Origin: Hahella ganghwensis DSM 17046
Lineage (GTDB): Bacteria; Pseudomonadota; Gammaproteobacteria; Pseudomonadales; Oleiphilaceae
DNA: 57,951 bases
Direction: 5' to 3'
NCBI RefSeq assembly: GCF_000376785.1
Contig: NZ_AQXX01000102.1
Location: forward strand, 1-57,951
The position numbers were made by a program, and so were the translations under genes. Below, in pieces: positions 394-51,584 of this stretch (position 1 is its first letter; every line of letters begins with the position of its first letter). Below the pieces are notes generated by a model. It ran no database searches and was not told the origin of the DNA. It saw only the letters and a list, made by a program, of their open reading frames with translations.

Positions 394-457
394 GTATCTC
401 TCCTTTATGCTCAAATTCGAGATACATCCCCCTGATTGGGGACGTATCCCCAGGGGG
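394..457 (-). promoter_or_regulatory. Twin-hairpin SD-sequestering leader (copy 1)
   Basis: On the minus strand, P2 pairs GTATCTC (419-425) with GAGATAC (394-400), which covers the SD of the 288-392 ORF. P1 (428-457) has an outer stem of CCCCCT with AGGGGG and an inner GGGGA/TCCCC. P1 carries GGGATAC (444-450), a one-base variant of the SD arm that could pair with the same anti-SD strand. The leader is intact although its gene seems cut. Confidence 0.65.
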
Positions 458-785
458 TGGACTGGCTCCGATTTCAGCTACGGATCGCTCTTTACGATTC
501 CATAATACTGATCATATCCATAGGTTCAACCCCTATGGTGTAGGAGAGATATAAAGACTCTATCCCTGGGGTGATTGGTCCACCCCTTTATTACCTCCCA
601 ACATATGGAGCTTTTGATGCGTCGTAAAGGTCTTTGTGGCTGATTAACTAAGGAATCGTTGCCGACCCTCTCTTTGATTGAGTTTGTAATGTCCAGTAGT
701 GGCGCATAAAATAAATATTGTTATACCTGGTCGTTAGGTTAAAACGACAACGTGCTTGCTGCGATTCAGCAAGACCTTTTACCAA
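458..785. other. Gene-free stretch with short hairpins
   Basis: No convincing gene. Two hairpins are visible: CCATAGG/CCTATGG at 518-538 and GGGGTG/CACCCC at 568-586. The second repeats, in inverted form, a GGGGTGGAC motif found at 454-462, so it may be a relic of another leader. The promoter of the 842 gene should lie in the later part; no clear -35/-10 pair stands out. Confidence 0.4.
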
Positions 786-841
786 CCCTGTAGGGCTACC
801 ACCTACAGGGGGATAGCTCTACGTTTTTAACAGGAGCTATC
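786..841 (+). promoter_or_regulatory. Twin-hairpin SD-sequestering leader (copy 2)
   Basis: P1 is CCCTGTAGG (786-794) with CCTACAGGG (802-810), a perfect 9-bp stem. P2 is GATAGCTC (812-819) with GAGCTATC (834-841), a perfect 8-bp stem that ends directly against the ATG at 842 and buries the AGGAG SD. The loop side of P1 has GGGCTACC (793-800), which can pair in part with the same anti-SD arm. Confidence 0.75.
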
Positions 842-1069
842 ATGGTACGCTGGCTAATTAACTTTTTGGTTGAAGTCAGAAGCCGTTTTCTAATTGATAC
901 AAGTGCGTTGCGTGAAGATACGCGGAAAATCGCAGTATCGATGATAATAACCTCCCTAGTCGGAGCTATTATCGTCACCGATAAAGTGTCAAGTAGAGAC
1001 GCCTTTGTACTTGGTATAGTTGGCATAATTTTTTGGGTAGTGTCTTTGCTGAAGAAGCGAGATACTTAA
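842..1069 (+). CDS. Small two-helix membrane protein
   Basis: 75 residues with two hydrophobic segments, about 30-46 and 53-69, and charged ends (RKIA between, LLKKRDT at the end), so probably a small inner-membrane hairpin protein. The start is fixed by the SD AGGAG six bases upstream, which lies in the twin-hairpin leader. It is followed after 13 bases by another small membrane-protein gene and then a terminator, giving a two-gene unit. No family or function is recognised. Confidence 0.65.
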   Translation: MVRWLINFLVEVRSRFLIDTSALREDTRKIAVSMIITSLVGAIIVTDKVSSRDAFVLGIVGIIFWVVSLLKKRDT

Positions 1070-1082
1070 TAGAGGTGATGAA

Positions 1083-1208
1083 ATGGTGAATTGGCACCTG
1101 TATACAATATTGGCACTCATTGGTCTCATTGTGATTACAGGATTGTGGTGGAATGGGCCTACTCATAAAAGAAGGCGCAATTCAAAACATAAGGCTAGTA
1201 ACCCTTAA
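1083..1208 (+). CDS. 41-residue single-span membrane peptide
   Basis: Short gene with SD GAGGTGATGAA just before its ATG. The product has one hydrophobic span (about residues 6-23, ending in WW) followed by a strongly basic tail (HKRRRNSKHK), so the orientation is probably tail in the cytoplasm. It is the second gene of the 842 unit and precedes a clear terminator. It has the look of a small plasmid membrane peptide; no function is recognised. Confidence 0.55.
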   Translation: MVNWHLYTILALIGLIVITGLWWNGPTHKRRRNSKHKASNP

Positions 1209-1246
1209 TTTCTTCGTCCAATATGCTGACTTTTACTGGACCCAAA

Positions 1247-1272
1247 ATGCTCTCCTATGGAGAGCATTTTTT
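1247..1272 (+). terminator. Rho-independent terminator
   Basis: ATGCTCTCC (1247-1255), loop TAT, GGAGAGCAT (1259-1267), then a run of six T. It ends the small membrane-protein unit and lies between it and the convergent 1295-8344 operon. Confidence 0.9.
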
Positions 1273-1294
1273 ATGATGGCAAAGTTAGTTAATC

Positions 1295-2545: not shown

Positions 2546-2593
2546 AAAAAATTCCCTGTTGATAATTATGTTCTTTATATATTGAAACCAGGT

Positions 2594-5346: not shown

Positions 5347-5366
5347 AAATTACTCTATAGTAGTAA

Positions 5367-6155: not shown

Positions 6156-6166
6156 TTTACATCCTT

Positions 6167-8344
6167 CTAAAAGACTATTGAAGCTCCAATGCGTATATTG
6201 TATTCATCAGAATATGAGTAACGCTCAAACTCATACAAGTATTCAACGTCACTTGGCTGATATTCAATGGAGCTGCTTACAGTTATGTGTGAATTTTTCG
6301 AAAAATCAAACTTCTTTAGATACGTTAAGTTCCAAATATCAAGTGATCCCCCGGACATTTTACTGTTTCCAATATAGCCAAAGGATACACTTTCATTCTT
6401 CATCTTATAAATTATTGCTGCATTGCCACTATGAGTGGCATTTAGTCCATTTTCGTTTTGTGAGCTAAAATCATGATCTTGGTAACTATAACCAAAGTTC
6501 AGTACTAGCATCGGTGTAACACTGAATACTCCATCGATTTCAACTCCTTTAATATGGCCATTGCCATTATTGGTAAGGTGATATATTTCAAAAGCCGGCT
6601 CTTCAGATATGAGGTTCGACAGATTTTCATAGAACACTCGTCCATTAAAAACTAACCGGTGTTCCCAAGTACGATAAAGCGCACCAAGCTCAACTGCTTC
6701 GACTTTCTCTGCTTCTAGATCAAAATCTTCGCTGAAGGCAGTATAGGTAAATATTCCCTTTGAACTTCCGCCAAGCCTGGGTTGGATGTTCGTTAATTGA
6801 TAGTTCCAGAATCGATTAGTCTCCAATAAATCAGGAGACCGGTAACTTGTGTTGTAGACGATCCTATAAGTCAGTGACTTAGATTGATGCCAATTGACGG
6901 AAACTCTAGGGCTAATTAATGTCTTCCCAATGTTCTTGGGACTTTCAGCCATCATACCAACGTTATAGGTAAAGTCTTCAGTCGGTTTCCACTCCAGATT
7001 GCCAAAAATACTGTAAGTTTCAGTCCGCTCAGTCCCGTTAAAATAGCTTCTACTATATCCGTCAATTTGGTCATAAGAGAATCCCGAGAACAACCGTAAG
7101 TTGTTCGATAGAAAACGGTAGTGCTCCGTGGATAGATGTGTGCGCTTGTCCACATAATCCTGATTCGTGGTCGCACACACAGATTGGGATACGGTTGGAC
7201 CCAAGCTTGCTATTTTTGTTAGTAATGCCATTAGTAAAACATCATCCCGCTCACTCCCTCCTGTTGGCATCCCACCATTTAATAGGGTCTCAAAGTAGTA
7301 CGGGTTTGAAGCATTTAAATCGAAGGACTCTTGTAACGACAATATTGCAGGAATACAGGCCCGAAAATCTTGCTCAAGCTCGCTTCGCTTAAAATATGCC
7401 TTTAAGCTAGTCTCAGATCGATTTGAATGAATAACCTTTAAATGGCCATTTACGAATGCATCGTTATTTGCAATGTCTGGATAAACATCCTCTACTTGTC
7501 CGTCAAAAACGAACTCTGTTTGATAGTCAGCTTCCACATACCCTGCCTGCAACATAAGTTCAGTATTTTGGTCAATGTAACCATCATATCTTGCAAGGAA
7601 TCTGTCTACCTTAGCATCGTCTCTGCTTCCTGTTGCAGTATCCCTATCTGGGTTTGATACCTCAAGGTCATCGTATCCATCGTCCCTTGTTGTTGAAGCA
7701 CCGAAGCTAAGGCTCGAATCACCGAAGCTGAATGCTCCTTTATAATAGAGGGCTTCGCCACGCTTGCTAACATTAGCGTTTAGCTCGTTATTTGGTACAT
7801 CGATAGAGTGCCGTGTGATGATGTTAATCGTGGCCTGAAAGGCATTGGCACCATATGATGCAGCTGAGGGATTTCTGAGTACCTCTATACGTTCTATATC
7901 GTCAATTGTTACCGGTAGCTGTGACCAGTCTATTTTGGAGAGTGCGCCCAAGTATACCGACATCGAATCGATCTGAACCTGCAGCCTTCTTGGAAGTAAG
8001 GCGGATCCTCCGTGATAGCCTACCCTATAGTCATGACCAGTAAGCTGAGAGTTGGCAGTAATCTCTAACACAGACATTCCAGGAACCAACCGTAGAGCTT
8101 CGGGGATGTTCTCTATTCCTCGTACTTTGACATCATCTCGTGTGATCACGGTAACAGTCCCAGGAATGTCTTCTATGAGCTGTCCCATTCTGGTTGGCGT
8201 TAGAAAAATTAGGTTTCCCTGATCATCGTGCCCCTGGCCACTCCAAACGTCCACGCTGTCGGCTGCAGAGGCTGCATCGAAGAATAGAAATAGAGGAAAA
8301 ATAGATTTGAGAATAATACTAAGACTTCTAAAGCGTACATCCAT
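6167..8344 (-). CDS. TonB-dependent outer-membrane receptor
   Basis: 725 residues: signal peptide (1-27), plug domain (about 45-180, with TVTVITRDDVKVRG, LRLVPGM and IERIEVLRNPSAASYGANA), then a beta-barrel ending in a C-terminal aromatic, IRIGASIVF. It imports a bulky ligand across the outer membrane using TonB/ExbBD supplied by the host, as none is encoded here. It is first in the minus-strand operon and has SD AGGAG upstream. The ligand cannot be told; association with a ceramidase-like enzyme suggests a lipid- or amide-containing molecule, which is inference only. Confidence 0.9.
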   Translation of the reverse strand: MDVRFRSLSIILKSIFPLFLFFDAASAADSVDVWSGQGHDDQGNLIFLTPTRMGQLIEDIPGTVTVITRDDVKVRGIENIPEALRLVPGMSVLEITANSQLTGHDYRVGYHGGSALLPRRLQVQIDSMSVYLGALSKIDWSQLPVTIDDIERIEVLRNPSAASYGANAFQATINIITRHSIDVPNNELNANVSKRGEALYYKGAFSFGDSSLSFGASTTRDDGYDDLEVSNPDRDTATGSRDDAKVDRFLARYDGYIDQNTELMLQAGYVEADYQTEFVFDGQVEDVYPDIANNDAFVNGHLKVIHSNRSETSLKAYFKRSELEQDFRACIPAILSLQESFDLNASNPYYFETLLNGGMPTGGSERDDVLLMALLTKIASLGPTVSQSVCATTNQDYVDKRTHLSTEHYRFLSNNLRLFSGFSYDQIDGYSRSYFNGTERTETYSIFGNLEWKPTEDFTYNVGMMAESPKNIGKTLISPRVSVNWHQSKSLTYRIVYNTSYRSPDLLETNRFWNYQLTNIQPRLGGSSKGIFTYTAFSEDFDLEAEKVEAVELGALYRTWEHRLVFNGRVFYENLSNLISEEPAFEIYHLTNNGNGHIKGVEIDGVFSVTPMLVLNFGYSYQDHDFSSQNENGLNATHSGNAAIIYKMKNESVSFGYIGNSKMSGGSLDIWNLTYLKKFDFSKNSHITVSSSIEYQPSDVEYLYEFERYSYSDEYNIRIGASIVF

Positions 8345-8421
8345 TACAATACCTACTCCTAGATCCCTTTAAATCATGAACAGATCAAAAGGGCATTACG
8401 AACGCTAACTCTATTGATTCG

Positions 8422-9751: not shown

Positions 9752-9949
9752 ATGTTGATATCAGGAGATAGAATTAGGCTTAGTTCAAGGGAGTTGAACC
9801 AACTAAGTCAGTTGACTCAATGTTCGGTTTCCCATTTACGGACAAAAACTCAGCTCAATTCCTTTGTTCGCGAGCAATTGGCCAACCAACCCGACTCAAC
9901 TCCTGAAGAGAAGTTAATCCACAAAATGTTGGAATCATTTCTTACGTGA
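9752..9949 (+). CDS. Small hypothetical protein
   Basis: 65 residues starting MLISGDRIRLSSRELNQL. The start at 9752 is preferred over 9728 because GGAG lies ten bases before it. The segment SRELNQLSQLTQCSVSHLRTKTQLNSF suggests a short helix-turn-helix, but it is too short to be sure. Its 3' end overlaps the convergent 9935-10120 gene by 15 bases. Not recognised. Confidence 0.4.
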   Translation: MLISGDRIRLSSRELNQLSQLTQCSVSHLRTKTQLNSFVREQLANQPDSTPEEKLIHKMLESFLT

Positions 9950-10120
9950 TGCTTCAACGGTTCGTAACGCTCTAACATAAATATGCGATAGCTCTTCCCT
10001 AAGTTCGCGATCCTCGTTAAGAACATCAACTATCAAGACAGCCATGTCTGGATCCTCTGCCATTTCTCTTAATTGAGTGTGACAGGTTTTTAACCACTTC
10101 AAATCAAGTACATTTACCAT
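9935..10120 (-). CDS. Small acidic hypothetical protein
   Basis: 61 residues, MVNVLDLKWLKTCHTQLREM..., helical and charged. The start at 10120 is chosen from the strong SD AAAGGAGAA, held in the P2 hairpin of a leader of the recurrent design; the longer frame upstream would run through that hairpin. It is a good example of the leader marking a real small gene. Function not recognised. Confidence 0.6.
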   Translation of the reverse strand: MVNVLDLKWLKTCHTQLREMAEDPDMAVLIVDVLNEDRELREELSHIYVRALRTVEASRKK

Positions 10121-10122
10121 AC

Positions 10123-10178
10123 GCTTCTCCTTTTGTCCCCAGAAGAAGCTCCCCATTAGGAGAAGCTTCCCAATGGGG
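10123..10178 (-). promoter_or_regulatory. Twin-hairpin SD-sequestering leader (copy 3)
   Basis: P1 pairs CCCCATT with AATGGGG (10151-10178). P2 pairs GCTTCT with AGAAGC (10123-10149) and overlaps the SD AAAGGAGAA. Inside P1 is GGAAGC (10165-10170), a one-base variant of the SD arm AGAAGC, able to compete for the anti-SD. Confidence 0.7.
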
Positions 10179-10409
10179 TGAAAATGTAGTCAGACCCAAT
10201 TCTTATTTAGAATCGTGCATCATTTCAGGTCTACGGATGCTTTCCTTTCGCCCATCATAGGCAACAAAGACTGGTAATTATTTCAATAATACAGGCAACT
10301 AGCTGAGTCAGTCTATCTAATGGAAGACCGGCAAAAACTTTACTGAACGCAATTGAGATGCCCTATGCAATAGGATGTCGCTAGTAAATCGACCAAAGGA
10401 CTCAATCTC

Positions 10410-10951: not shown

Positions 10952-13225
10952 TCATGCAGCATGACTTAACAGCTGTTTGGCTAAGGCAACTTCCACACTA
11001 CCTTCACCAGGGTTTAATGCATCCAGGCCACAGTCCGGAACTTCGCCAGAAGCACTCTGCGACACTTGAATTTTTTGCCCCAAGAGGGCCATGCACTCAA
11101 TTTGAGCCGTTCCCCGGTAGCCTAAAAACTTTACGCTAACAGGGTATTTTTGCCCAATTCTCCAGCTACGTTTGGATGACTGCTCCACAATCGTTGGTTT
11201 GATGCCCGTTTGCATAAATATGAGCTGATTAAACGCAAGCAAATCCAGTCCAGTTTCAACACAAGCGGGGTTACATATCACTCCATCAACCCCCAGATCC
11301 AACTGGTTATCAATCCACTCTTCTCGACGATCTGCCGGAACAGTCGACCTTAGAACAGCAAACCTAAGGCCTTCTGCTTCCAACAGTTTTTTAAGTCGAG
11401 CCATAGTGTCTCTTTTTCCAGTATAGATCGTATACACCAAAGTCTTTATCCCATCTGCTTTAGCCCTTTTACATAACGAGAGTAGTTTCTGCTCCTTAGG
11501 AGTAGGAGCTTCATCCGCTATTGCCGGGACAAACGCGATAGTATCCCTGGACCCTGGACGCTTCACTACCTCAGGACGGAAGCATGTCTCTGGCCATGCC
11601 AATAAGCAATTTATTACAACACCTAGCAAACTTGTATCACCTCTTGCCAGTGCTTTGCGCATTTCCAGTGTCAAACGATTGCTTAAGTTTTCATAGCATT
11701 CAGACATGTCATCAGTCATCTCAACTTCGAGATACTCTTCCGTATAAGGAGGTAGATTGTCCGAGATATCACCTAGCTTCACAAAAACTGTATTAGGCAG
11801 CAGGTACCTGGTAATACAGCTTGGCGATATCCCCGGAGCTCGGCTAACAGAGACAGAGGTTTTATTCCCCCTTGCCGTTTTATGACTCCCTTCAAGAGTT
11901 TCTTTAAATACCTCCTTTAAAACCCCGTGAGACCTCATGAACGACATTTCAGCACCTGCAACACTACCAGAGGCATTTGCTATATAACCATCAGATCTGA
12001 GTTTCCCTCCCATGGACCGCCACAGCAGATAAAATAGGTCATTTGCATACCCTTTTATCAATGTTCCAGTACAAAGTAGAACTTTTTGCACTTGAGATGC
12101 GATAACAGCCATGGCTTGACCCTGAGCACTGCTAGGGGCTGAGTATTCATGAGCTTCATCAACTATAGCCAAGTCAAAAAAGTTTCTTGGGAAATATCTT
12201 TTGATGAATTCACTGGCCTGGTAACAACTCTCAGAAAGTGAGAATTCCAACCTACCAAGAGCTTTCTCTATTCGACCAGATTGCCGGTCTGAGAATACGA
12301 AATCCCCGGTTTCATCCATCAGATTGACAAGATCATACACATTGTCTGCCAAGGTACTTCCTATCGACTCTGCACCAAATGTTCCACAAAGTGCTTCCGC
12401 AGTTTTTGGTCCAATGGTGGGAAGCTTGCACAGAAATCGACTCACCTGCTCATCATAGTCTTTAGGCTTTTTTGGATTGTATAGCGTCCAAAGAGGCTCA
12501 TTACAGACACGATCATCATTTTCCTTGTTGGAACAGAACAATCGACTCTTAGCAGAGAGAGACTCAAACTCCTCTTGTGTTAGGGGTTCTCCATCTTCAT
12601 TCGTGATTGGGGCGAAGCACTTGGGACACGCTGCAACCGTTGTGGAGTATAAGAATGTCCTTCCCTTCTCATTGTTATTCTCCATTGATTCCAGGGAATG
12701 AATTTTCCTTGCAGCTGCAGCTGGCTTCCAGTGATATCCCATTCTCATCCTCACGCGGCCGAGGATGTAGTAGCATGGTTTATCACGCTTGAAGCCCTCA
12801 GACCTCATCTTGACCAGTGTCGACAGCGTCGCTGGACCATTCAGAACGATAACATCTGCACCAGGTACAGTTTCCCTCACCTCTCTGGCCCACTTGTATA
12901 CAAGATGGGGTGGACATAAAACTAGAAATCGTTGATATCCAAAGCTGTTGGCGATGTAGCTAACAGCTAATGACATGAACGTTTTCCCGGTTCCCATCTT
13001 GCCATTCAGGATTGCTGTTCTCTCGTTCTGCTCAAACAAGAGAGTACACATAGCATGAATGGCTGATTTTTGAGCCTCGAAGGGGGTTCTATGTAGGTCT
13101 TCAAGGAGTATGTCCCAAATCGGGTTGGGCTGGGAATATAGAGGCGGGCAACTACGCTCCACTTGGTCAAGTAGTTCACTGCCCCAGTCACTGATAAAAT
13201 CAGCGAGAGAGATTTCGTTGGTCAT
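10952..13225 (-). CDS. SNF2/DEAH-type helicase of plasmids
   Basis: 757 residues. Helicase motif I is GKMGTGKT (75-82), motif II DEAH (356-359), motif III CTGT, and the C-terminal motif VI QSSKRSWRIGQ, typical of SNF2-like superfamily 2 ATPases. An insert between motifs I and II carries C200-x2-C203, C231 and C241, a probable zinc site. Such proteins remodel or translocate on duplex DNA. The start is MTNEIS at 13225, with SD AAGGAG in a leader hairpin; a longer frame upstream would read through the leader. It is the last gene of the block that includes the DNA methylase, so a role in plasmid establishment or defence is possible. Confidence 0.85.
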   Translation of the reverse strand: MTNEISLADFISDWGSELLDQVERSCPPLYSQPNPIWDILLEDLHRTPFEAQKSAIHAMCTLLFEQNERTAILNGKMGTGKTFMSLAVSYIANSFGYQRFLVLCPPHLVYKWAREVRETVPGADVIVLNGPATLSTLVKMRSEGFKRDKPCYYILGRVRMRMGYHWKPAAAARKIHSLESMENNNEKGRTFLYSTTVAACPKCFAPITNEDGEPLTQEEFESLSAKSRLFCSNKENDDRVCNEPLWTLYNPKKPKDYDEQVSRFLCKLPTIGPKTAEALCGTFGAESIGSTLADNVYDLVNLMDETGDFVFSDRQSGRIEKALGRLEFSLSESCYQASEFIKRYFPRNFFDLAIVDEAHEYSAPSSAQGQAMAVIASQVQKVLLCTGTLIKGYANDLFYLLWRSMGGKLRSDGYIANASGSVAGAEMSFMRSHGVLKEVFKETLEGSHKTARGNKTSVSVSRAPGISPSCITRYLLPNTVFVKLGDISDNLPPYTEEYLEVEMTDDMSECYENLSNRLTLEMRKALARGDTSLLGVVINCLLAWPETCFRPEVVKRPGSRDTIAFVPAIADEAPTPKEQKLLSLCKRAKADGIKTLVYTIYTGKRDTMARLKKLLEAEGLRFAVLRSTVPADRREEWIDNQLDLGVDGVICNPACVETGLDLLAFNQLIFMQTGIKPTIVEQSSKRSWRIGQKYPVSVKFLGYRGTAQIECMALLGQKIQVSQSASGEVPDCGLDALNPGEGSVEVALAKQLLSHAA

Positions 13226-13227
13226 AA

Positions 13228-13286
13228 GAGTCTCCTTGTAAATCATTTGCACCAAAGGAGACTCCACCAGGGAGTTTCCCTGGCGG
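13228..13286 (-). promoter_or_regulatory. Twin-hairpin SD-sequestering leader (copy 4)
   Basis: P2: GAGTCTCCTT (minus-strand copy of 13255-13264) pairs perfectly over ten bases with AAGGAGACTC (13228-13237), the SD arm. P1: CCAGGG/CCCTGG (13267-13283) inside an outer CC/GG. P1 contains GGAAACTC (13272-13279), differing by one base from the SD arm GGAGACTC. Confidence 0.8.
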
Positions 13287-13389
13287 GTTGTGTGAAGGAT
13301 CCACTGGTAATATTTACCAGCCTACGCTTATGGATCCGCGAGCGTAGAACCTCTATCGCTATAAAAGCGATTGTGAGATTTCAGGAAGA

Positions 13390-13867: not shown

Positions 13868-14440
13868 TCATGCAGAAAGGCGGTTAAACGCTCTACCTGC
13901 TTTCAAGAATGTAGTTACGACATCTTCCACAACGTTCTCATCAAGCTTAAAGCATATTCCGTTCACTCCAATACCGTCTTCCAGGAATTCGAGCAGACCA
14001 GAGTCCAAAAATCGCTCTATAAGCTCATCCTTCCATTCATCCAATAAAGGAACATGGACATACTTCTTCAACATTCCCCAAATATCAGGATTTCCAAGAT
14101 GTAAGTGCAAAGCGACTCGTGTTGCCACATCAAACCCAGAAGTCCGCTTATCAACAACAAAGGCATGTACTAAATCACCAAAAATTGGACTGACAATTTT
14201 ACTGGTGTGCTTTTCAAGCATCTTAGCACTGGGAACATATGCAGTACGGTTTGCGCCTGCTGGGGGATTCACGAGGGTAATTTTATCAATTCCAGTCTCA
14301 TGATCGCTTGCCTGCATCCTTGCGATAAATTCGAGTAGCGATGTTTCTCTGCCCCACGCGGATAGAAACACTAGGCCGCTATTCCAGGTGAGTATAGAGT
14401 CAATAAAAATATCATCTTGTTCTAAGATTTTGAAAATCAT
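13868..14440 (-). CDS. Hypothetical protein
   Basis: 190 residues from ATG 14440, chosen because GGAGG lies eight bases upstream; an earlier ATG (14467) lacks an SD. The sequence is a mixed alpha/beta protein with no membrane span or recognised motif; the middle (KITLVNPPAGANRTAYVPSA) is proline-rich and exposed. It follows the methylase gene after about 110 bases and has its own leader. Function unknown. Confidence 0.55.
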   Translation of the reverse strand: MIFKILEQDDIFIDSILTWNSGLVFLSAWGRETSLLEFIARMQASDHETGIDKITLVNPPAGANRTAYVPSAKMLEKHTSKIVSPIFGDLVHAFVVDKRTSGFDVATRVALHLHLGNPDIWGMLKKYVHVPLLDEWKDELIERFLDSGLLEFLEDGIGVNGICFKLDENVVEDVVTTFLKAGRAFNRLSA

Positions 14441-14441
14441 T

Positions 14442-14529
14442 GCCGCCTCCAAAAAATCAGAGGGCATTGCTGCAGAGGCAGCTAATGACCTCTACAGGTA
14501 AAAGACACTGGTCGTTGATACGAGCCAGT
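14442..14529 (-). promoter_or_regulatory. SD-sequestering leader (copy 5, diverged)
   Basis: P2: GCTGCCTC (14475-14482 complement) pairs over eight positions, one G-U, with GAGGCGGC (14442-14449), which includes the GGAGG SD. A competing upstream GAGG can pair the same CCTC. A separate ACTGG/CCAGT hairpin (14507-14529) lies further upstream, only 20 bases after the previous gene's stop. Confidence 0.5.
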
Positions 14530-14549: not shown

Positions 14550-15656
14550 TTACTTAATAGTTAGAATTTCACCATAAGTATCCGAGTTCTCGGTCAGGTC
14601 TATAGCCCTAATTACAGGAACGAACTGATCTGTTAGGACACGGGTAGTAGTTTGCTTTCCAGTTTCTTCGTCTACAGAAGACGTGACTCTTTCTTTGGAA
14701 ACTTTAAATGTATCGCCTTTGATCAACAATTTTTCACCGGTTGACTTACAAACTAGACCGTTAATTTCTCCAGCTGCCAAGCTAATGGCTAAATGCCATT
14801 TAGATAGCCGGCACAAAGGTCGAAATTCAGACTTCACTACTGGCCTATAGAGCATGTCAAACTGCCGCCACAATCCCTTATGGGCGTCTATTTGCTCGAT
14901 AAGTTGGTGTTGATCGAGAGTCAATTTCATAAACTTCTTCGAGTTGCTGGTAACCGTTGGGACTTCATAGAAATACTCAGGTTGCTCCGGCAGCTCATCA
15001 GCATTAACAATGTTCTCCCCAACTTTCAGGAGTTGCTTCTGAACTTCTTTACAAATCGTGCCAGGTCTAGAGCGGTATCCAACAACAACAACTTGTTTGA
15101 ATTGCTGTTCAGGTAGCCTGAAAATACCTACCTTCTGGTACGATTTCGCAATTAAGTTACAGATAGTTTTACTCTTGAGAGAATAATGCGGAACTACATA
15201 AATCAAAACACCGCCATACATCAATAGCGATTGACATCGGTTAAGAAAGTACTCCTCCAATCTTGATGCCTCGTTTTTTCGAATATCTTTGTTATGGTGA
15301 TCACTGGTGCGATCTCCATAAGGCGGATTCAAAAAAAGAAGCGAAAATGAGCGCGGTGAAACCAAAGTATCTTGAAGATCTGCGTGAAGACAAACGCTAA
15401 CTCTCGTTTTTGCCTGCCAAGCACGCTCTTCATCAATTTCAATACCATACGATTCCACTTTCCGGCCATCTCGTTCAAGAACACCGGTTAGGTGTTGAAG
15501 AGCAACACCCTCACCACAACATGGATCTAACAGATGTACAGACCCTTCTGAACGGCTATTAACCATTCTTCCAAGTCTTAAAAGGGATTCGTCATCAGTT
15601 GGGTAGAATCCATTTTTGATATAGTTATGAACTACTCGGGGATGCATTAAAGCCAT
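14550..15656 (-). CDS. DNA N6-adenine methyltransferase-like protein (DUF6094 type)
   Basis: 368 residues. SAM-binding motif DPCCGEG (44-50) and catalytic NPPYG (110-114) mark a Rossmann methyltransferase acting on exocyclic amino groups, most likely adenine in DNA. Length and the conserved start (PRVVHNYIKNGFYPT) fit the DUF6094 proteins found on conjugative elements. No restriction enzyme is adjacent, so it may be a solitary methylase protecting incoming DNA. SD AGGAGG is held in the leader hairpin; the gene follows DUF3275 within an apparent operon. Confidence 0.75.
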   Translation of the reverse strand: MALMHPRVVHNYIKNGFYPTDDESLLRLGRMVNSRSEGSVHLLDPCCGEGVALQHLTGVLERDGRKVESYGIEIDEERAWQAKTRVSVCLHADLQDTLVSPRSFSLLFLNPPYGDRTSDHHNKDIRKNEASRLEEYFLNRCQSLLMYGGVLIYVVPHYSLKSKTICNLIAKSYQKVGIFRLPEQQFKQVVVVGYRSRPGTICKEVQKQLLKVGENIVNADELPEQPEYFYEVPTVTSNSKKFMKLTLDQHQLIEQIDAHKGLWRQFDMLYRPVVKSEFRPLCRLSKWHLAISLAAGEINGLVCKSTGEKLLIKGDTFKVSKERVTSSVDEETGKQTTTRVLTDQFVPVIRAIDLTENSDTYGEILTIK

Positions 15657-15659
15657 AAA

Positions 15660-15719
15660 GCCTCCTAATCATCAATAAATCAATAGGAAGCACCCACATG
15701 GGTACTCCCCATGATGGGT
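15660..15719 (-). promoter_or_regulatory. Twin-hairpin SD-sequestering leader (copy 6)
   Basis: P1 has an outer ACCCA/TGGGT and an inner CATGGG/CCCATG (15692-15719). P2 pairs GCTTCCTA with TAGGAGGC (15660-15691), covering AGGAGG. The P1 loop has GGGGAG, which can pair with the anti-SD CTTCC through one G-U. It begins only 17 bases after the DUF3275 stop, so it lies inside the operon. Confidence 0.75.
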
Positions 15720-15736
15720 TTTGTAAAAACTTAATC

Positions 15737-16294
15737 TCAGCGTTGTTTCCGGAAAACCTGTTCTTTTAGGTCAATTGACCAACCGTTATCTTGTAAATAC
15801 TTAATCTGAGCACGCAGGGTATTTCTATCAACAGTTGAATCGAGCTTAACAACACTTCCAAGTGGCCAGAGATGGCCAAAAAGTGATTCACCAGCAGGAT
15901 CTGCATAAGAATCTCTTGAAGAAGTAGCCGCCTTTCTTTTTGTAGCAACTTTCTTCTCCGATTTCGCATTTTGAACATCGCATGCCTGGTCTGTTCCAGG
16001 ATCGATGACGGGATCCGGAAGTTCTTCATGACCGAGCTCAGCTCCAGTGATTCTAATAGCATCAATCTGGGCAACAGCTTCAATCAGAATTTTTCCGGTA
16101 TTACCAAGTTGAAAGGACGCCGCACGTATTTGAGATACGTCAAACTCCCCTTCATATTTTCCCTGTTCAAACTGGTCTAACAACGAATATCTGACAGAAA
16201 ACTTACCAATGCTGGTATGAATTTTTGCCACATTAAAATCGCCATTTCTACCAGAGCGTTTTTCTACTACAAGATCGCCTTGTAACGTGATCAT
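15737..16294 (-). CDS. DUF3275 family protein
   Basis: 185 residues. The N-terminal half (MITLQGDLVVEKRSGRNGDFNVAKI ... GKYEGEFDVSQI) matches the beta-rich DUF3275 domain common on integrative and conjugative elements next to ssb, DUF3577 and topoisomerase genes. The middle is a basic linker (KKVATKRKAATSS) and the C-terminus is a small domain that begins SLFGHLWPLG. Function is unknown; the context suggests DNA processing of the transferred strand. SD GGGGAG is in a leader hairpin. Confidence 0.75.
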   Translation of the reverse strand: MITLQGDLVVEKRSGRNGDFNVAKIHTSIGKFSVRYSLLDQFEQGKYEGEFDVSQIRAASFQLGNTGKILIEAVAQIDAIRITGAELGHEELPDPVIDPGTDQACDVQNAKSEKKVATKRKAATSSRDSYADPAGESLFGHLWPLGSVVKLDSTVDRNTLRAQIKYLQDNGWSIDLKEQVFRKQR

Positions 16295-16298
16295 ATAA

Positions 16299-16362
16299 CT
16301 CCCCTAACCAGAAGATTTTGTCTCATGTGATTTGGGGAGCCCACTTGGTCTCCCCAAGCGGG
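16299..16362 (-). promoter_or_regulatory. Twin-hairpin SD-sequestering leader (copy 7)
   Basis: P1: outer CCC/GGG and inner CTTGG/CCAAG (16340-16362). P2: CTCCCC (complement of 16334-16339) pairs with the SD GGGGAG (16299-16304). The loop of P1 holds an identical GGGGAG (16350-16355), so the anti-SD has two equal partners. Confidence 0.8.
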
Positions 16363-16369
16363 TACGGCT

Positions 16370-16904
16370 TAAATGCTGCTTTTCAGCCACGAGCAGCTCT
16401 CTGGTCGATCAGGACGATCGATACAGAACCATCTATCCAATAACTCCTCAAGGAGGACATTGGGTAGATGGCTGTTTGGGATATAATTGAAATTGGATAG
16501 AGTAAAACGGTTGTCGAAACAACCGTTTTAGATACAAGAAACCGCAGTAGTTAGACAGTAACGCTCTAATCAGGTTTAAGCAGCGTGCGTATTCTGCATC
16601 AACCAATATGGCCACACGAGAGCTGTTGGCCATCACACCTAGTGCATCCTGGAAACCAGAATACAAAAGGCCGCGTGAATTTATGAACCGGCCACGGAGC
16701 CGACGAAGACACATCGTAAGAGCACTGCGGGGCTCTATTAAAGCGACTTTTCAATCGGCTTAATAGAGCCCCGCAGTGAAGACTCAGAACAGGACAGTAG
16801 AGAGACTGTTGCAGGGCCACTCTTTTTCCGTTCTCGGGTTGCAGAGGGTGGTATTTCACAACCCACGACCACCTAGCCACGTCACAAGGACGGACAGTGA
16901 AATG
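16370..16904. other. Multi-hairpin intergenic region, possible ssDNA promoter or structured RNA
   Basis: No gene is found in about 530 bases, but stems are dense: CCATCTA-CCAAT with ATTGG-TAGATGG (16429-16471); a perfect 12-bp stem with loop CGAA (16503-16530); ATGGCCA/TGGCCAT (16608-16633); GGCCG/CGGCC near 16669-16694; and a 19-bp perfect stem CACTGCGGGGCTCTATTAA with its complement around 16733-16788. A GGTGGT/ACCACC pair follows near 16848-16873. It lies between STY4534-like and DUF3275 genes, close to ssb. A single-strand promoter, oriT part or large RNA are all possible. Confidence 0.5.
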
Positions 16905-16933: not shown

Positions 16934-17545
16934 TCAGGCCACTTTGATGAAGCCATCAACGCTCTCATCATAAGTGTAACCTTCGTTAACTAGCTGAGAA
17001 GCATGCATGAAACAGTTTGGATCAGACTTATCAAGTCTAACTACACGATCCTCTAATGTTTCTTCATGAACCTCCGGTACCGGTAAAGCTTCTTCAACCG
17101 GAGGTGCTTCTTCAGTGTTCGAATCACCAAAATGAAAGTCCACTGGATCTGAATCCTTAGTGAACCGAATTTTGGCAGTTCGGATTTTAAGTATTCTACC
17201 TTTAATCGTTGGGACTGGTTCCTGCTTACCATCCACATTCCGGTAGAACATATCAGATCTAAGATCTCCAATTGAGAAGCTAATAAACACTCCTCCAGGA
17301 ATATCATATTGACCTTGTTTTTGTCCCAAAGTGAAGGCGCCTGATGAAATCAGTTCTTCAATCCGGTATACAGCTTGCTCACCAACAATAGAGCAGTCTA
17401 TGAATGTGGTTTGCTTCGAGTCTTTCAACCCGTGAAAAGCACAAACAGTGACAGCGTAGTATGGTTTACCTTTGCTTGGTTTGACATAACGAAGACGATG
17501 AAGTGTACCAACACCGTTAACGATAAGATCATAAGCATCAGACAT
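16934..17545 (-). CDS. STY4534/DUF3577 family ICE replication-associated protein
   Basis: 203 residues. The first 125 (YDLIVNGVGTLHRLRYVKPSKG ... TTFIDCSIVGEQA) match the DUF3577 proteins annotated as STY4534 family ICE replication proteins, probably an OB-like fold. The tail is acidic and proline-rich (EEAPPVEEALPVPEVHEE), then a short helical end. It sits near SSB and TIGR03761 as on PFGI-1-type elements, so a role in maintaining single-stranded transferred DNA is reasonable. SD AAGGAGA is buried in a strong leader hairpin. Confidence 0.75.
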   Translation of the reverse strand: MSDAYDLIVNGVGTLHRLRYVKPSKGKPYYAVTVCAFHGLKDSKQTTFIDCSIVGEQAVYRIEELISSGAFTLGQKQGQYDIPGGVFISFSIGDLRSDMFYRNVDGKQEPVPTIKGRILKIRTAKIRFTKDSDPVDFHFGDSNTEEAPPVEEALPVPEVHEETLEDRVVRLDKSDPNCFMHASQLVNEGYTYDESVDGFIKVA

Positions 17546-17620
17546 GATGTTTCTCCTTGTTGCTATGCATAGCGGGGAAACATCAATCCCATCCTGGGAA
17601 ATTAGTTTCCCCAGGTGGGT
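17546..17620 (-). promoter_or_regulatory. Twin-hairpin SD-sequestering leader (copy 8)
   Basis: P1: CCTGGGG.AAA with TTTCCCAGG (17593-17615) and an outer CCCA/TGGG. P2: GATGTTTC with GAAACATC (17546-17584), holding SD AAGGAG and an inner palindrome GCTATGCATAGC. The anti-SD stretch GTTTCCCC (complement of 17574-17581) can instead form eight perfect pairs with GGGGAAAC in P1 (17605-17612). This is the clearest two-state copy. Confidence 0.8.
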
Positions 17621-17746
17621 TATAAACAGCCATTTTAACAGCGCTATAGGCTACGAGCGCTTAACCGACTGCCGAAGCAGGGTCTCCTTATCGGTGAGAG
17701 ACCTATATTGAACTTAGAATGTAGCAAACGGAATGTCATGCGTCAA
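17621..17746. other. Upstream part of the STY4534 leader, additional hairpins
   Basis: Between the 17747 stop and the twin-hairpin leader lie GGTCTC/GAGACC (17681-17703), CTGC/GCAG with a TTCG-type loop, and two AGCGCT copies around 17640-17661. They add to a structured leader of about 170 bases. No gene. Confidence 0.4.
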
Positions 17747-18919: not shown

Positions 18920-18948
18920 TGGTGAAAGTAAAGAACTAAATCGCTTTG

Positions 18949-21147: not shown

Positions 21148-22692
21148 TTACTCGTTACAAAGCTCAAGAATCCGATCTTCAACTTCCCTAAATTGGGTTA
21201 AAAATTGTTTTAATCTGGAGTCTTGACTCATGAGACGGATCGTCTCGTTGTAGACAGTAAACAGAGAAAGCTCTGAGCCGAATGTAGATTTTATGGCGGA
21301 TAGAGCGTCTGCTTCGGTTAAGGTATCATCCACGTTGTTGATGATGGTGTATAAGGACCACCAAACAGCGGCTACAGGATCACCGACTTCAAAGGTTGCA
21401 TCCTCAGGGGGGGTTACTTGAATCCCTAATGCGCTCTCACACTGAACGATTAAATGGCTTAGTCCCCAAGGTTCCAAAATTGAATTCACTAGGAAAATAA
21501 GCGCGTCAGACTTTGATGTCTGGTGGGATGGCGACTCTGCCGCATCCCCATCGTTAGTTGTTTCAAAAGTGTTGCAGGCTGCAACAGTTTGATCGTCGTT
21601 GCTGCCTTCGGCAGAGTTAGCAGCATCAATACTAGGTTCATTGGAAATGGCGTCAGGGATCGAGTCAGAAGTGTTGCAGCCTGCAACACTTTTATCATTG
21701 TCGATTGATACGCCTGCAAGGATGGATTGGAACTCACTAGCAATTACATCAGAATCTTGATGCACGTAATCTGCCAGTAGAGTAACTAAATGATTTTGAA
21801 TTCCATTCCAGTCCAATACAGGAGCATCGTGGGATGAAAGTGCATCAGACCAGAAAGCTGAATGAATTTCGTTGCACTGCTCCTCTCCAATGTAGTGTTT
21901 CAGGAGCGTTTTGAAATCAGCACCAAGTTTTCTCAGTTTAATTACTGAGTCGTGACCAATTCCCTCCCAGAGTGCTGTAGGGATTAAGTGTATTAGTTCG
22001 TTTGCGGCATATAAAAATCTTGTTAGATTGGGGGCCTGCATCGGCCAGCCTTCAGCAGTGATCAAGTCTGCTAGTTTCCTTGCGCTAATAGATTGTCCTT
22101 CTTCCAAACGTTTCTTAATGCCGAATTTTTTATACTGCTCCCATTCATCACCACGGCACTTTTGTTCGAAAAGCACTTGTAGTTCTTGTGCGGCAAGTGC
22201 CTTTTCAATAAATGCGGTATCTCCACGCAACTCATTTTCGACCATATGACCAATAATTCCACCAATTGGTCCGGTCCAGGGAACTGGTCGCGCTTTAAAT
22301 TTATAGTAACTCTTAGCACGCTCTTCGTACTCAATTTTCGTTGGAATGTCGTCTGTTTCTTTAGCCAACTGACGATATTCCCGGTACAACTCATTTAGAA
22401 TTTTTAAGCGAGTGTTGCCCCCATCAGCAATTTGCCACTGAGGGTCAGAAGGGTCTTCTTTCGTAATGTTGGGTACATGATCTAGCCCCTTATTACGAAT
22501 GGACTCTTTAATTTCCTCGTATAAAGGATTTTCCTTTTTTCGAGGGTTTAAACGAGAGGGGATGACTTCATCAAGAGTAACCTCAACAAGGTCAACAGGT
22601 TCTGCGTCTAATTGAACGGAATTACTGAAAGATACAACATCATCAGTAAGAATGGCAGCCGCCTCTGATTCATCGAATTTGCGTCGACTCAT
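21148..22692 (-). CDS. parB: ParB-family partition protein
   Basis: 514 residues. The N-terminal ParB/Srx-like domain shows IPSRLNPRKKENPLYEEI and WQIADGGNTRLKIL, followed by a DNA-binding helical domain (EGQSISARKLADLI ... TRFLYAANELIHLIP). It binds parS and loads onto DNA to move the plasmid with ParA. It resembles the large ParB of PFGI-1-type elements. Two parS-like palindromes lie within the coding sequence and encode AGCNTSDS and AACNTFET in a low-complexity linker (about residues 336-392). SD GGAG lies nine bases upstream. Confidence 0.85.
   Translation of the reverse strand: MSRRKFDESEAAAILTDDVVSFSNSVQLDAEPVDLVEVTLDEVIPSRLNPRKKENPLYEEIKESIRNKGLDHVPNITKEDPSDPQWQIADGGNTRLKILNELYREYRQLAKETDDIPTKIEYEERAKSYYKFKARPVPWTGPIGGIIGHMVENELRGDTAFIEKALAAQELQVLFEQKCRGDEWEQYKKFGIKKRLEEGQSISARKLADLITAEGWPMQAPNLTRFLYAANELIHLIPTALWEGIGHDSVIKLRKLGADFKTLLKHYIGEEQCNEIHSAFWSDALSSHDAPVLDWNGIQNHLVTLLADYVHQDSDVIASEFQSILAGVSIDNDKSVAGCNTSDSIPDAISNEPSIDAANSAEGSNDDQTVAACNTFETTNDGDAAESPSHQTSKSDALIFLVNSILEPWGLSHLIVQCESALGIQVTPPEDATFEVGDPVAAVWWSLYTIINNVDDTLTEADALSAIKSTFGSELSLFTVYNETIRLMSQDSRLKQFLTQFREVEDRILELCNE
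21567..21589. repeat. parS-like palindrome 2, inside parB
   Basis: Same palindrome with centre G and one arm change (CTGCAACAGTT for CTGCAACACTT). It is in the linker-coding part of parB, 102 bases from copy 3. Confidence 0.8.
21669..21691. repeat. parS-like palindrome 3, inside parB
   Basis: Perfect 11-1-11 palindrome identical to copies 1 and 5, lying in the parB coding sequence. Confidence 0.85.
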
Positions 22693-24478: not shown

Positions 24479-24540
24479 TCTTTATAAATGAGTGGGTTAC
24501 TGTGATTCTTTGCTTGAACTAAAAAGACAGGCGTGCAAAT

Positions 24541-40000: not shown

Positions 40001-40037
40001 TTTTTAATGCTTTACATCTAAATTCTTTACTTTCGCC
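40001..40037 (+). promoter_or_regulatory. tra box, copy 2
   Basis: Same architecture as 28059-28095: TTTTTAATGCTTTA, five different bases, AAATTCTTTACTTTC, one different base, CC. It lies between the terminator and the VirB4 gene, 59 bases before its ATG. Confidence 0.75.
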
Positions 40038-40095
40038 TAAGTTCTCCCCCCTCAATGTAGAGTTTCGATAATGAAATCCAAACGGATGAATATCG

Positions 40096-46604: not shown

Positions 46605-46618
46605 GAGGTTACTACTAG

Positions 46619-48325: not shown

Positions 48326-48353
48326 GTGTATTCCACTAGAGATATGGAAAATG

Positions 48354-48380
48354 TTTGAAAATATGGAGCGCTCCATATAT
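48354..48380 (+). repeat. 27-base direct repeat with 18-base palindrome, copy 1
   Basis: TTTGAAA then ATATGGAGCGCTCCATAT, a perfect 18-base palindrome. The same 27 bases occur at 52652-52678. It lies upstream of the lipoprotein gene at 48428, where an operator would be expected. Confidence 0.8.
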
Positions 48381-48427
48381 ATTTAGGTTAAATATTGATC
48401 TCTATTGAGCTATTCATTGAGGATTTC

Positions 48428-48940: not shown

Positions 48941-48959
48941 CTCTTAAAGGGTAGATTCA

Positions 48960-49520: not shown

Positions 49521-49529
49521 GGAGGCCTT

Positions 49530-50558
49530 ATGAGGCAGTTAGCATTAATTCTTACATTGGCTTTGCTTCAGGGCTGTGCAGTTAATGAGCAGTTGAAGGA
49601 TTTGACAGGGCTTTCTGTATCAATGTCTTCTAAGGAAGAGGGAAAACTGGAGTCATCGATCCAAGATCCTCTGGGAACAAATCAAAATATAAATGAGTTC
49701 CCAGTCGTTAGTCGATTGACTGTCAAGAAGGTCGGAGCTGATTCATTCACGGTAAATAACCAGGAGCATAAGCTGGAAATCCCCATCAATGAGCTTTCGA
49801 AAAGCTCTGCAACCGGGGCGGTCACTTTGCTTACATTTAGGGATTTTGCTGGAGATGGATATATCAAGTTATACGATTTGCATACTTTGCATTTCAAGAG
49901 TGATGGGCAGATCACCAGGCGTTCCAAATGGGGAACAATTGAGCGGAATGCCAGCTTTTACCATTTTGTTGGTGAGGATGGGCAGCGCATCCAGGGGGGG
50001 ACTGGAATTATTCTCGGCTCTAAAGGCGTGTTGTTTAACAATCAGGACTCGGTTGTAACTTATATCGAGCAAGGTCGTAGTAATCGCTTTACGTTACCAG
50101 AGGGGGCCAGAGTTATACCGAGGCAGAACTCAGATATTTCCGCGAGCAGGCACATAGGATTACTAAAGCCATTAAGAGATAATGCTTTGTTGGGTTTGGC
50201 TTCGAAGGATAGCCACAAATATGCACTAATGCTATTTAGCCTGGATACAGGCCAAGTGACTACTGCGTTAGAGGTTTCCCTGGAAGGAAAATCTTACGAT
50301 AGGCAGTTAGATAAACTGTCATCAATGTGGCAAGTCCATTCAGTGTCATCTGGACCGATATTAGTCTCCCTGGAGACGTCCGGCACTCAGGTTGTGGCGA
50401 GAAACTTGAAAACTCAGAAGAAACGTATTCTTGAAGAGAAGACCTTTGGAATATCCTATTTTCACTCAGGTGTTGAAAGCGGTGGACAAGACGTCTGGGT
50501 AAATATTGCCAATGGACTCTCAGAATCGAAAGTAAATTCAGTACAGGATCTCCTCTAA
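49530..50558 (+). CDS. Large hypothetical lipoprotein
   Basis: 342 residues, lipobox LLQGC (Cys about 16). The mature part is beta-rich with repeated strand patterns (VNIANGLSESK at the end), perhaps a propeller-like surface or periplasmic protein. SD GGGAGG. It follows the PH-domain gene by nine bases. Not recognised. Confidence 0.6.
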   Translation: MRQLALILTLALLQGCAVNEQLKDLTGLSVSMSSKEEGKLESSIQDPLGTNQNINEFPVVSRLTVKKVGADSFTVNNQEHKLEIPINELSKSSATGAVTLLTFRDFAGDGYIKLYDLHTLHFKSDGQITRRSKWGTIERNASFYHFVGEDGQRIQGGTGIILGSKGVLFNNQDSVVTYIEQGRSNRFTLPEGARVIPRQNSDISASRHIGLLKPLRDNALLGLASKDSHKYALMLFSLDTGQVTTALEVSLEGKSYDRQLDKLSSMWQVHSVSSGPILVSLETSGTQVVARNLKTQKKRILEEKTFGISYFHSGVESGGQDVWVNIANGLSESKVNSVQDLL

Positions 50559-50580
50559 TTGAGATTCAAAAGGTGATGAT

Positions 50581-50769
50581 ATGTTTACACTACTGAAAAA
50601 ACTATTAACTGAAATAATTGAAGGGATTGTTGAAGGTGTGCGGCTGGGTCTTGTTGGTGATGCACAAGACGATGACCAAAGTGTCCGTTTGTCTACCGAA
50701 GGATTCCAGTACCATCGCCGGACTGTTTTCGATGATCCGTTCGACGATCCGTTTGATTACGACAGGTAA
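50581..50769 (+). CDS. Small acidic hypothetical protein
   Basis: 62 residues, MFTLLKKLLTEIIEGIVEGV then an acidic end with the repeat DDPFDDPFDYD. The first 20 residues form an amphipathic helix. SD AAGGTGATGAT. Last gene of the accessory unit. Not recognised. Confidence 0.55.
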   Translation: MFTLLKKLLTEIIEGIVEGVRLGLVGDAQDDDQSVRLSTEGFQYHRRTVFDDPFDDPFDYDR

Positions 50770-50890
50770 TCTCTTTAAATCGGATATAATTTATCCTATA
50801 TTAACTGAGTAGTTCGCTGCTTTGTCAGCAAAACTTAGGTGTCCAAGCTGGTGAAAGACACCACTAGAAAATAGTCCAGTGTAAAGCCAA

Positions 50891-50961
50891 CCCCGTGGGA
50901 AGTATCTTCCCACAGGGATGATGGTTCCTGCGCCTACTTACGGAAAATTAGCAAGAGGAAC
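50891..50961 (+). promoter_or_regulatory. Twin-hairpin SD-sequestering leader (copy 9)
   Basis: P1: outer CCC/GGG and inner GTGGGAAG/CTTCCCAC with loop TAT (50891-50917). P2: GTTCCT (50924-50929) with AGGAAC (50956-50961), covering the SD AGAGGAAC. Another stem GGTGTC/GACACC lies upstream near 50839-50864. The plus-strand copy shows the design is not tied to one strand. Confidence 0.75.
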
Positions 50962-50965
50962 TATT

Positions 50966-51466
50966 ATGGCTATGAGTCAATCTTTATCACACATCAATTT
51001 CAGCCAAGGATCGGCGATGCAGTACCACTATCAGCATATTTGTGATGATTCGCCATCGCTCTATATCGGTGAGAAGGGCAAAGCCCTAATATTGCTTCTC
51101 TCAAGTGGAGAAGCATATCGTGTATATGGCGGTGTCTTTGATCGTTACGAATCTGCCAGGAAGATGATTTCCCAATTCTATTCTCCATGGCTTTCGAATC
51201 TTTCGATTGACCAGAACCTCTACCATGCAGGGTATGAAAAAGTCGACCTGCAGTCAGACGTAGAAGTGACCAAATTATTGGCAAAGTATCAATGGCCTAA
51301 AGAAGTACTCCGATCCATAAACTATATCACTAGGGATCGTTGTACTCATGAAGGTACGATAATTGATGTCGATGAACATGAAGGTGATACCAATTATTTG
51401 GTCCGACCATCAGCCAATCCGTGCAATGTCCACTATGTCCCTGCAAACAGGGTGATCTTTAGCTGA
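50966..51466 (+). CDS. Hypothetical protein with leader-controlled start
   Basis: 166 residues from ATG 50966 (MAMSQSLSHINFSQG); GAGGAA lies seven bases upstream within the leader. The frame is open from 50918, but that would translate the leader. Soluble, no membrane span. It has KALILLLSSGEAYRVYGGVFDRYESA near the middle. Not recognised. Confidence 0.6.
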   Translation: MAMSQSLSHINFSQGSAMQYHYQHICDDSPSLYIGEKGKALILLLSSGEAYRVYGGVFDRYESARKMISQFYSPWLSNLSIDQNLYHAGYEKVDLQSDVEVTKLLAKYQWPKEVLRSINYITRDRCTHEGTIIDVDEHEGDTNYLVRPSANPCNVHYVPANRVIFS

Positions 51467-51544
51467 TCAGCCTTCCTTTGCGACTATAGCCGCTTGGTTT
51501 AGAACTGTAGTGTAAGTTCTTTATCGAACATGCAATAAGCCCAT

Positions 51545-51584
51545 GAGGTATTCACTTATGGGTGAATGCCTCTGTTCATGAGGA
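51545..51584 (+). promoter_or_regulatory. SD-mimic/anti-SD leader (copy 10)
   Basis: GAGGTATTCAC (51545-51555) pairs with GTGAATGCCTC (51562-51572) to form P1. The CCTC (51569-51572) in its 3' arm can instead pair with the SD GAGG (51580-51583). The two foldings exclude each other, a compact switch. Confidence 0.65.

Follow-up and report, generated by a model that had tools for sequence, protein, structure and literature searches.

Our study identified ten genes of a Hahella ganghwensis plasmid, within a window of 57,951 nucleotides (the whole stretch of DNA analysed), that are preceded by leaders of one compact layout: a hairpin, P1, and then a second hairpin, P2, whose 3' arm contains the Shine-Dalgarno (SD) sequence. 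A mimic of the SD arm lies inside P1, which gives the anti-SD strand a second possible partner; we call the helix of mimic and anti-SD S2. As modelled, these leaders have the computed features of an SD-sequestering switch, namely a stable helix over the SD and an anti-sequestering helix that excludes it, both of which appear to be selected, and we give an even chance to the reading that each leader acts in cis as a bistable translational switch in the mRNA.

The first-pass annotation had proposed the layout at ten starts, and all ten have it (Table 1). In the leader at 390..461, for example, the mimic in P1 is GGGATACGTCC, the anti-SD strand is GGATGTATCTC and the SD arm is GGAGAGATAC; the leader at 15654..15723 lies 14 nt past the end of the preceding ORF. 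The genes behind the leaders are functionally unrelated, as had been claimed, with helicase, methyltransferase-like, DUF3275 and DUF3577 genes among them. The DUF3577 protein was considered as an autoregulator, and its AlphaFold2 model is poor (mean pLDDT 47). By eye, several Vibrio leaders carry a T-rich stretch 3' of the anti-SD, which raised the idea of an intrinsic terminator; this stretch is absent in most window leaders.

Table 1. Leaders of the window, with triple scores and the number of shuffles, out of 300, that reach each score.
Leader	Strand	Gene behind the leader	Triple score	Shuffles, triple	Shuffles, twin
390..461	-	34-aa ORF (288-392)	-57.7	0/300	
782..844	+	75-aa ORF (842-1069)	-52.5	0/300	
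10118..10182	-	61-aa ORF (9935-10120)	-55.8	0/300	
13223..13290	-	SNF2/DEAD-type helicase (10952-13225; Pfam)	-63.5	0/300	
14438..14503	-	190-aa ORF, no assigned function (13868-14440)	-48.7	0/300	
15654..15723	-	DUF6094 methyltransferase-like (14550-15656; Pfam)	-51.4	0/300	
16292..16366	-	DUF3275 (15737-16294; Pfam)	-59.4	0/300	
17543..17622	-	DUF3577 (16934-17545; Pfam)	-48.3	0/300	
50887..50968	+	166-aa ORF, no assigned function (50966-51466)	-56.2	0/300	
51536..51593 (atypical)	+	84-aa ORF, no assigned function (51591-51845)		28/300	2/300

The leaders were scored by the sum of P1, P2 and the pairing of the P1 region with the anti-SD (triple score) or by P1 and P2 alone (twin score), with 300 dinucleotide shuffles as the control for each start. 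We set 61 starts, 58 of them valid, since no start codon stands at 48429, 50582 or 51852. Nine of the ten leaders occupy ranks 1 to 9 among the 61 on the triple score, and on the twin score four of these nine are matched by 2 to 7 of 300 shuffles. An annotation-blind scan of both strands, run without shuffles, placed the nine within its top 16 triple places, and three of the other seven places are the antisense of a leader. The non-leader start 2545 also has 0/300 (triple -37.3); its P1 and P2 are AT-rich, unlike the leader family. The tenth leader, that of 51591, is real by inspection, though its shuffle counts and its weak P2 make it an atypical member in which S2 dominates (-16.7 kcal/mol, with P1 at -10.7 and P2 at only -4.1). 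Three further starts described earlier as less full copies (9024, 18858 and 23623) fail on the triple score, with 300/300, 300/300 and 30/300 shuffles respectively, and were rejected as leaders. The tra genes had been said to be without leaders, and those starts of the transfer region that we scored bear this out (the region has TraD/TraG-, TraC-, TraU-, TraG_N- and DUF2895-type genes, five of the ten proteins scanned): their best triple score is -33.3, whereas even the weakest among the nine leaders has -48.3.

The description of the family as plasmid-wide was too narrow. The same layout stands upstream of genes of related plasmids and integrative and conjugative elements (ICEs), where S2 also covaries, and the covariance-model search that the first-pass annotation had suggested, made with a model that we call R1, found matches in 34 of the 369 genomes of the class, among them 19 of the 20 genomes with DUF3577, our own genome being counted. 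Within the window R1 recovers only four of the ten leaders: 390..461 (25.9 bits, E 5.3e-5), 10118..10182 (E 0.004) and 50887..50968 (E 2.9e-7), none of them a training row, and the leader of the DUF3577 gene, which is one; those of 842, 13225, 14440, 15656, 16294 and 51591 are missed. The leaders are clustered in runs, for example eight R1 matches within about 8 kb of one genome, and the genes behind them include ArdC, SSB, RadC and RecT. At the gathering score, no Rfam 15 family falls on any leader of the window or of 26 other sources. The window itself gave no match at that score and four below it at E up to 10, none of which is radC RNA (RF01754). In 9 plus 17 other loci Rfam 15 found 22 radC RNAs and one c-di-GMP-I riboswitch, none over a leader. 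Like the leaders, the radC RNA is structured and precedes genes of these elements; it is a separate 149-nt motif that ends upstream of the leader, and a leader follows in 19 of the 22 cases by score, or in 21 with the inclusion of two that R1 or visual inspection recognised. Among the open-licence PMC articles listed by our searches, no title or abstract opening describes leaders with this layout, an absence that is weak evidence.

The pairing of the P1 region with the anti-SD is specific to each locus. Own pairs exceed swapped pairs in the ten window leaders (-10.94 vs -7.13), in 27 leaders chosen by eye from 47 starts that we had selected in the annotation of six related plasmids (-9.94 vs -7.12) and in 19 R1-found leaders from 19 other genomes (-12.91 vs -10.59), with 0/20,000 permutations in each set. 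Covariation was examined in 19 evenly spaced aligned leaders, where S2 pairs in 89.7% of cells; the covariation of S2 is 0.290 vs 0.195 shuffled (0/500) and that of P1 and P2 is 0.199 vs 0.149 (0/500), in a structure hand-drawn from the pair support of this same alignment, so that structure and test are not independent. The drawn structure weighs less on the R1 matches, on the swap tests and on the loci that R1 found. In 80 distinct R1 matches, among which we kept the training rows together with a few weak matches in antisense, S2, which lies outside the model, covaries at 0.199 vs 0.147 (0/500). Two S2 columns beyond the modelled P2 pair in 89 of 120 cells against 71.6 expected (0/5000), and in 38 of 64 against 28.8 in a thinned set (13/5000), a test that is weaker than it appears because in 24 of 61 rows these columns could, across a small bulge, lengthen P2 itself; both outer pairs form in 36 of the 61 rows and in 18 of the 37 where P2 is not so extendable. 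The consensus fold of a MAFFT alignment of 37 leaders contains no pairs, in our guess because the P2 loops vary in length. It is also important to consider that P1 and P2 may have arisen by an old duplication, in which case own pairs would be more alike even if there were no switch. The swap and covariation results uphold the earlier proposals that one anti-SD strand has two possible partners and that selection acts on RNA pairing, in independent elements too.

The mismatches in these helices bear on which molecule is paired. S2 contains 36 G.U and 5 A.C pairs, and this excess of G.U points to the sense RNA; in P2 the two are equal (15 and 14), which counts against our reading. The excess in S2 also counts against the hairpins acting as DNA, in the form of Frpo-like single-stranded promoters on the incoming strand, which fits the position of leaders before ArdC, SSB, RadC and RecT genes and the SSB genes reported behind Frpo promoters in leading regions (PMC11541004, where the part concerned does not name ArdC). 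Sigma-70-like pairs with at most four mismatches occur in 12 of 56 leaders vs 39% of shuffles, and are thus rarer than by chance, and in the leaders studied the SD sits in the P2 arm adjoining the start codon; the single-stranded-DNA role raised in the first-pass annotation is therefore very improbable.

The preferred switch in the mRNA can be described with four segments followed by the start codon: (1) the SD-arm mimic in P1, (2) the P1 3' arm, (3) the anti-SD and (4) the SD arm. Fold A (1:2 with 3:4, that is, P1 and P2) would hide the SD, and fold B (1:3, that is, S2) would hold the anti-SD upstream and leave the SD free. We computed the equilibrium folding of 56 leaders without the SD and at full length, with swapped P1 as a control. 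In transcripts ending before the SD, 31 of 56 leaders (seven of the ten in the window) have the anti-SD in upstream pairing (>0.5), vs 40 of 332 with swapped P1, and at full length its partner is the SD side, downstream, in 46 of 56. Upstream pairing is unfavoured in 25 of the truncated leaders, including those of 13225, 16294 and 17545, and eight of the 56, including that of 51591, favour it even at full length. By these computations the equilibrium fold would shift once the SD is made, as in phage MS2, in a bare majority of leaders. The architecture, the locus-specific 1:3 and 3:4 pairing, the covariation and the equilibrium shift on lengthening are the computed basis of our model, in which the balance would often lie with fold B before the SD is synthesised and with fold A afterwards, so that fresh transcripts would be preferentially translated and mature or read-through mRNA would be closed to ribosomes, cistron by cistron, except where a factor kept fold B in place. 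Timing may be the control variable, with ribosomes using the open phase, and the purpose may be to express genes for DNA processing and establishment in bursts.

The median cost of freeing the SD is 7.8 kcal/mol (92 leader sequences, a redundant set). This cost and the P2-side pairing at full length would also suit a P2 that blocks the SD constantly, for weak expression, insulation or as a thermometer, with P1 as an inert companion; we consider this improbable, as in three leader sets P1 fits the anti-SD of its own locus better than those of others and S2 covaries in the alignments. The choice between 1:2 with 3:4 and one alternative also resembles attenuators, in which P1 would be unfolded by a ribosome translating a short ORF ahead of it, but an SD-preceded short ORF enters P1 in none of the ten window leaders, and the one before 16294 stops 5 nt upstream of the leader, which leaves leader-peptide attenuation the least probable of the readings considered.

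A possibility that we hold tentatively, at less than even chances, is that the same two folds are set in trans, by an RNA-binding protein of the element or the host that has P1 (ACCC...GGGGA) as its target and acts on all leaders jointly as a switch. ACC occurs within the first 35 nt in 33 of 37 leaders vs 47% of shuffles, which hints at a bound factor, since a pure folding timer needs less sequence; the GG/CC columns of P1 are almost invariant across the alignments, and the runs of leaders are regulon-like. However, no candidate protein was found, CsrA being the sole one examined. The target motif of CsrA/RsmA is GGA, and the paired mimic is without it in three of the ten window leaders and in ten of the 27 others. 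CsrA alleles have been reported on plasmids and phages (PMC7366521, in the part concerned), but neither the window contig nor five of the six related plasmids encodes CsrA (the genome has one copy elsewhere, on contig C142). Targets of an element-encoded CsrA were rejected on both grounds; the host copy could still act.

Among known systems, the rpsO (S15) operator also opposes two hairpins to an alternative fold across the SD region; it controls one gene and answers to a defined protein ligand, whereas our leaders precede many genes and have no known ligand. In the leader of the MS2 maturation gene, a transient fold permits translation before the final fold forms (PMC6733600, in the part concerned); a translation-permitting transient fold is what we propose here from computed folding, although MS2 has a cloverleaf at a single phage gene and the present leaders are one compact module at many genes with a locus-matched SD mimic. 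For the aapA3 and hok type I toxin mRNAs, the same source describes alternative partners of the anti-SD and hairpins that are metastable while transcription proceeds. As far as that description goes, the transient hairpins of aapA3 block the SD in the nascent RNA, whereas here the nascent fold would spare it, and the genes behind our leaders are not toxin genes.

It is possible, though we think it less likely than the switch itself, that these leaders form a riboregulon common to several families of conjugative elements, in which one module was copied from gene to gene and re-matched locally, so that genes of replication, recombination and anti-restriction would be translated only for a short time after they are newly transcribed, for instance at recipient entry or on activation of transfer, under the control of either folding kinetics alone or a single factor. 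A switch of this kind would give a large group of plasmids and ICEs an extra layer of control. The leaders also provide the radC RNA with a partner that regularly lies downstream of it, and their dozens of locally re-matched copies offer a natural set for testing the design rules of one switch.

The first-pass annotation of the window, one of the 144 contigs of the 6.56-Mb Hahella ganghwensis genome, attributed to ten gene starts a leader in which hairpin P1 is followed by hairpin P2 with the SD as its 3' arm, and this layout is present at all ten. Nine of the ten named leaders were among the 16 best places in an annotation-blind scan of both strands, and when gene starts were ranked by the triple score (P1, P2, and pairing of the P1 region with the anti-SD; 61 starts scored, 58 valid), those nine occupied ranks 1-9 of the 61, each with 0/300 in shuffled controls. 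The leader at 51591, in which P2 is weak and the dominant helix is S2 (the alternative pairing of an SD-arm mimic inside the P1 region with the anti-SD), is genuine by inspection. The starts at 9024, 18858 and 23623, which had been proposed as less complete copies, are not members by score. The transfer-region starts that were scored are non-members too, in agreement with the reported absence of the leader from tra genes.

The proposal that the anti-SD has two possible partners was borne out in three leader sets, in each of which the P1 region favours its own anti-SD over those of other leaders. Own versus swapped pairing gave -10.94 versus -7.13 in the window (n = 10), -9.94 versus -7.12 in 27 leaders of six other plasmids, and -12.91 versus -10.59 in 19 leaders found in 19 other genomes with R1, our covariance model, with 0/20,000 permutations in every case; these tests carry the most weight in the case for a switch. 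The best duplex comprises 3 to 13 pairs and often extends past the SD core. The number of anti-SDs whose own partner is also the best one (6/10 in the window, 6/27 elsewhere) is less striking than the swap tests, and we take these modest counts to reflect the GGGGA-like cores common to the leaders. Almost all of the R1-found leaders (17/19) run up to the ATG of an ORF 68 aa or more in length, the exceptions being those at loci L041 (1 aa) and L042 (31 aa).

Covariation was evaluated in a different set of 19 leaders, aligned and chosen for their even spacing. Pairing occurs in 86.3% of cells for P1 and P2 (covariation 0.199 versus 0.149 shuffled; 0/500), in 89.7% for S2 (0.290 versus 0.195; 0/500), and in only 59.6% for the outer P1 stem; over 80 distinct R1 matches, S2 covariation was 0.199 versus 0.147 shuffled. 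It is important to consider that kinship among rows inflates these shuffle tests, and therefore the figures support S2, short of proof. Two S2 columns beyond the modelled P2 were paired in 89/120 cells versus 71.6 expected (0/5000), or 38/64 versus 28.8 after thinning to 33 rows (13/5000); this test is weakened because in 24/61 rows the same bases could lengthen P2 past a small bulge. Both extra pairs form in 36/61 rows, and in 18/37 where the P2 extension is impossible. In S2, G.U exceeds A.C (36 versus 5), pointing to sense RNA; in P2 the two are equal (15 versus 14). The own-versus-swapped preference and S2 covariation thus uphold, in the window and in other elements, the claim of selection on RNA pairing.

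The suggested covariance-model search did give matches: with E up to 0.001, R1 has hits in 34 of the 369 class genomes. DUF3577 is present in 20 of the 369, and 19 of these 20 also have an R1 hit (every figure includes the host genome); the association (Fisher p 1e-21) is biased by the DUF3577 leaders that formed part of the R1 training set. In a phylum sample of 398 genomes, which overlaps the class sample, 15 have a match when the limit is set at E 1e-4, and one of these 15 belongs to another class. R1 recovers only four of the ten window leaders, these being its four best window matches and one a training row, and misses six; the host genome has two matches at E <0.001, both on the window contig, and the next at E 1.6. 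Six related plasmids, searched whole, gave 2 to 8 matches each (E up to 1), some antisense, with at least one per plasmid by construction since each supplied training rows. Ten proteins behind R1-found leaders were scanned: ArdC (2), SSB, RadC, RecT, DUF932, DUF6094, an Eco57I-type methylase, a glycine-zipper protein and one without family. In one genome that lacks any DUF3577 match, a region scores as leader-like before CbbQ-like, RecT, DUF3150 and VWA/CobT-like genes with a YqaJ gene adjoining, a set known from SXT/R391-type elements.

The window itself encodes a TraI_2 relaxase, Rep3, ParA-like, AcaB, DUF2857, SSB, DUF3577, DUF3275, DUF6094, helicase and topoisomerase, and its transfer region TraD/TraG-, TraC-, TraU-, TraG_N- and DUF2895-type genes (five of ten proteins scanned); such a gene set is known from plasmids and ICEs of the MOBH/GI type, and MOBH is the type assigned to two of the related plasmids. 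The name 'STY4534 family ICE replication protein' is given to related proteins; the window DUF3577 protein reaches 64.7 bits, below the NCBIfam cut-off of 160 for this name. No near DNA match to the first 25 kb was found among plasmids.

Repeats, palindromes and other features in the window and at one plasmid locus
Position	Feature	Context or reading
1-260	Transposase-gene end by appearance (by eye)	Start of contig
390-461	Leader pointing toward the transposase-like end	Reads into 34-aa ORF
16723-16778	Inverted repeat with 92% agreement between its 24-nt arms	Between DUF3577 and DUF3275 genes
near 18940	Stretch resembling the TTCTTTACTTTC repeat (by eye)	Before SSB gene
20236, 21565, 21667, 23764, 26011	Palindrome AAAAGTGTTGCAGCCTGCAACACTTTT, five copies	Around par/rep genes, two inside ORF 21148-22692; may serve partition or bind a regulator
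23973-24485	Many GACAAATTGAATGTC-type repeats	Upstream of Rep3; probable origin iterons
28059-28098, 40001-40040	40-nt repeat (85%) with TTCTTTACTTTC	Before transfer-region genes; possible common activator site
48354-48385, 52652-52683	Near-identical palindrome ATATGGAGCGCTCCATAT	Each just 5' of a gene
L011 (Vibrio campbellii plasmid) 8258-8347	c-di-GMP-I riboswitch	Before gene of no known function

The radC RNA (RF01754) had 22 matches in the loci scanned, and a leader lies downstream in 19/22 by score, keeping the best-scoring start, or 21/22 with two recognised by R1 or eye; in those 21 the start codon is 62-115 nt downstream. The sole exception, with no leader after it, is at L014 2308. 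The RNA stands directly 5' of leaders at the loci L013, L014, L015, L017, L018, L022, L023, L025 and L048, and the two are perhaps combined at operon heads. In the main text of PMC2864571 (2010), the word radC appears once, in a table row.

When the SD arm is not yet made, the anti-SD is predicted to pair upstream (>0.5, all upstream partners counted, the mimic being one of them) in 31/56 leaders (7/10 in the window) versus 40/332 with swapped P1; in full-length leaders it pairs with the SD side in 46/56. Opening the SD costs a median of 7.8 kcal/mol (92 sequences, a redundant set including a few weak or antisense matches). By this equilibrium calculation, the SD would be open in the nascent transcript and closed in the mature one, a logic like that described for the maturation-gene leader of phage MS2. 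The literature searches gave no earlier description of these leaders. They are a genuine, widespread, switch-like family on conjugative elements, for which the switch mechanism is a grounded proposal.
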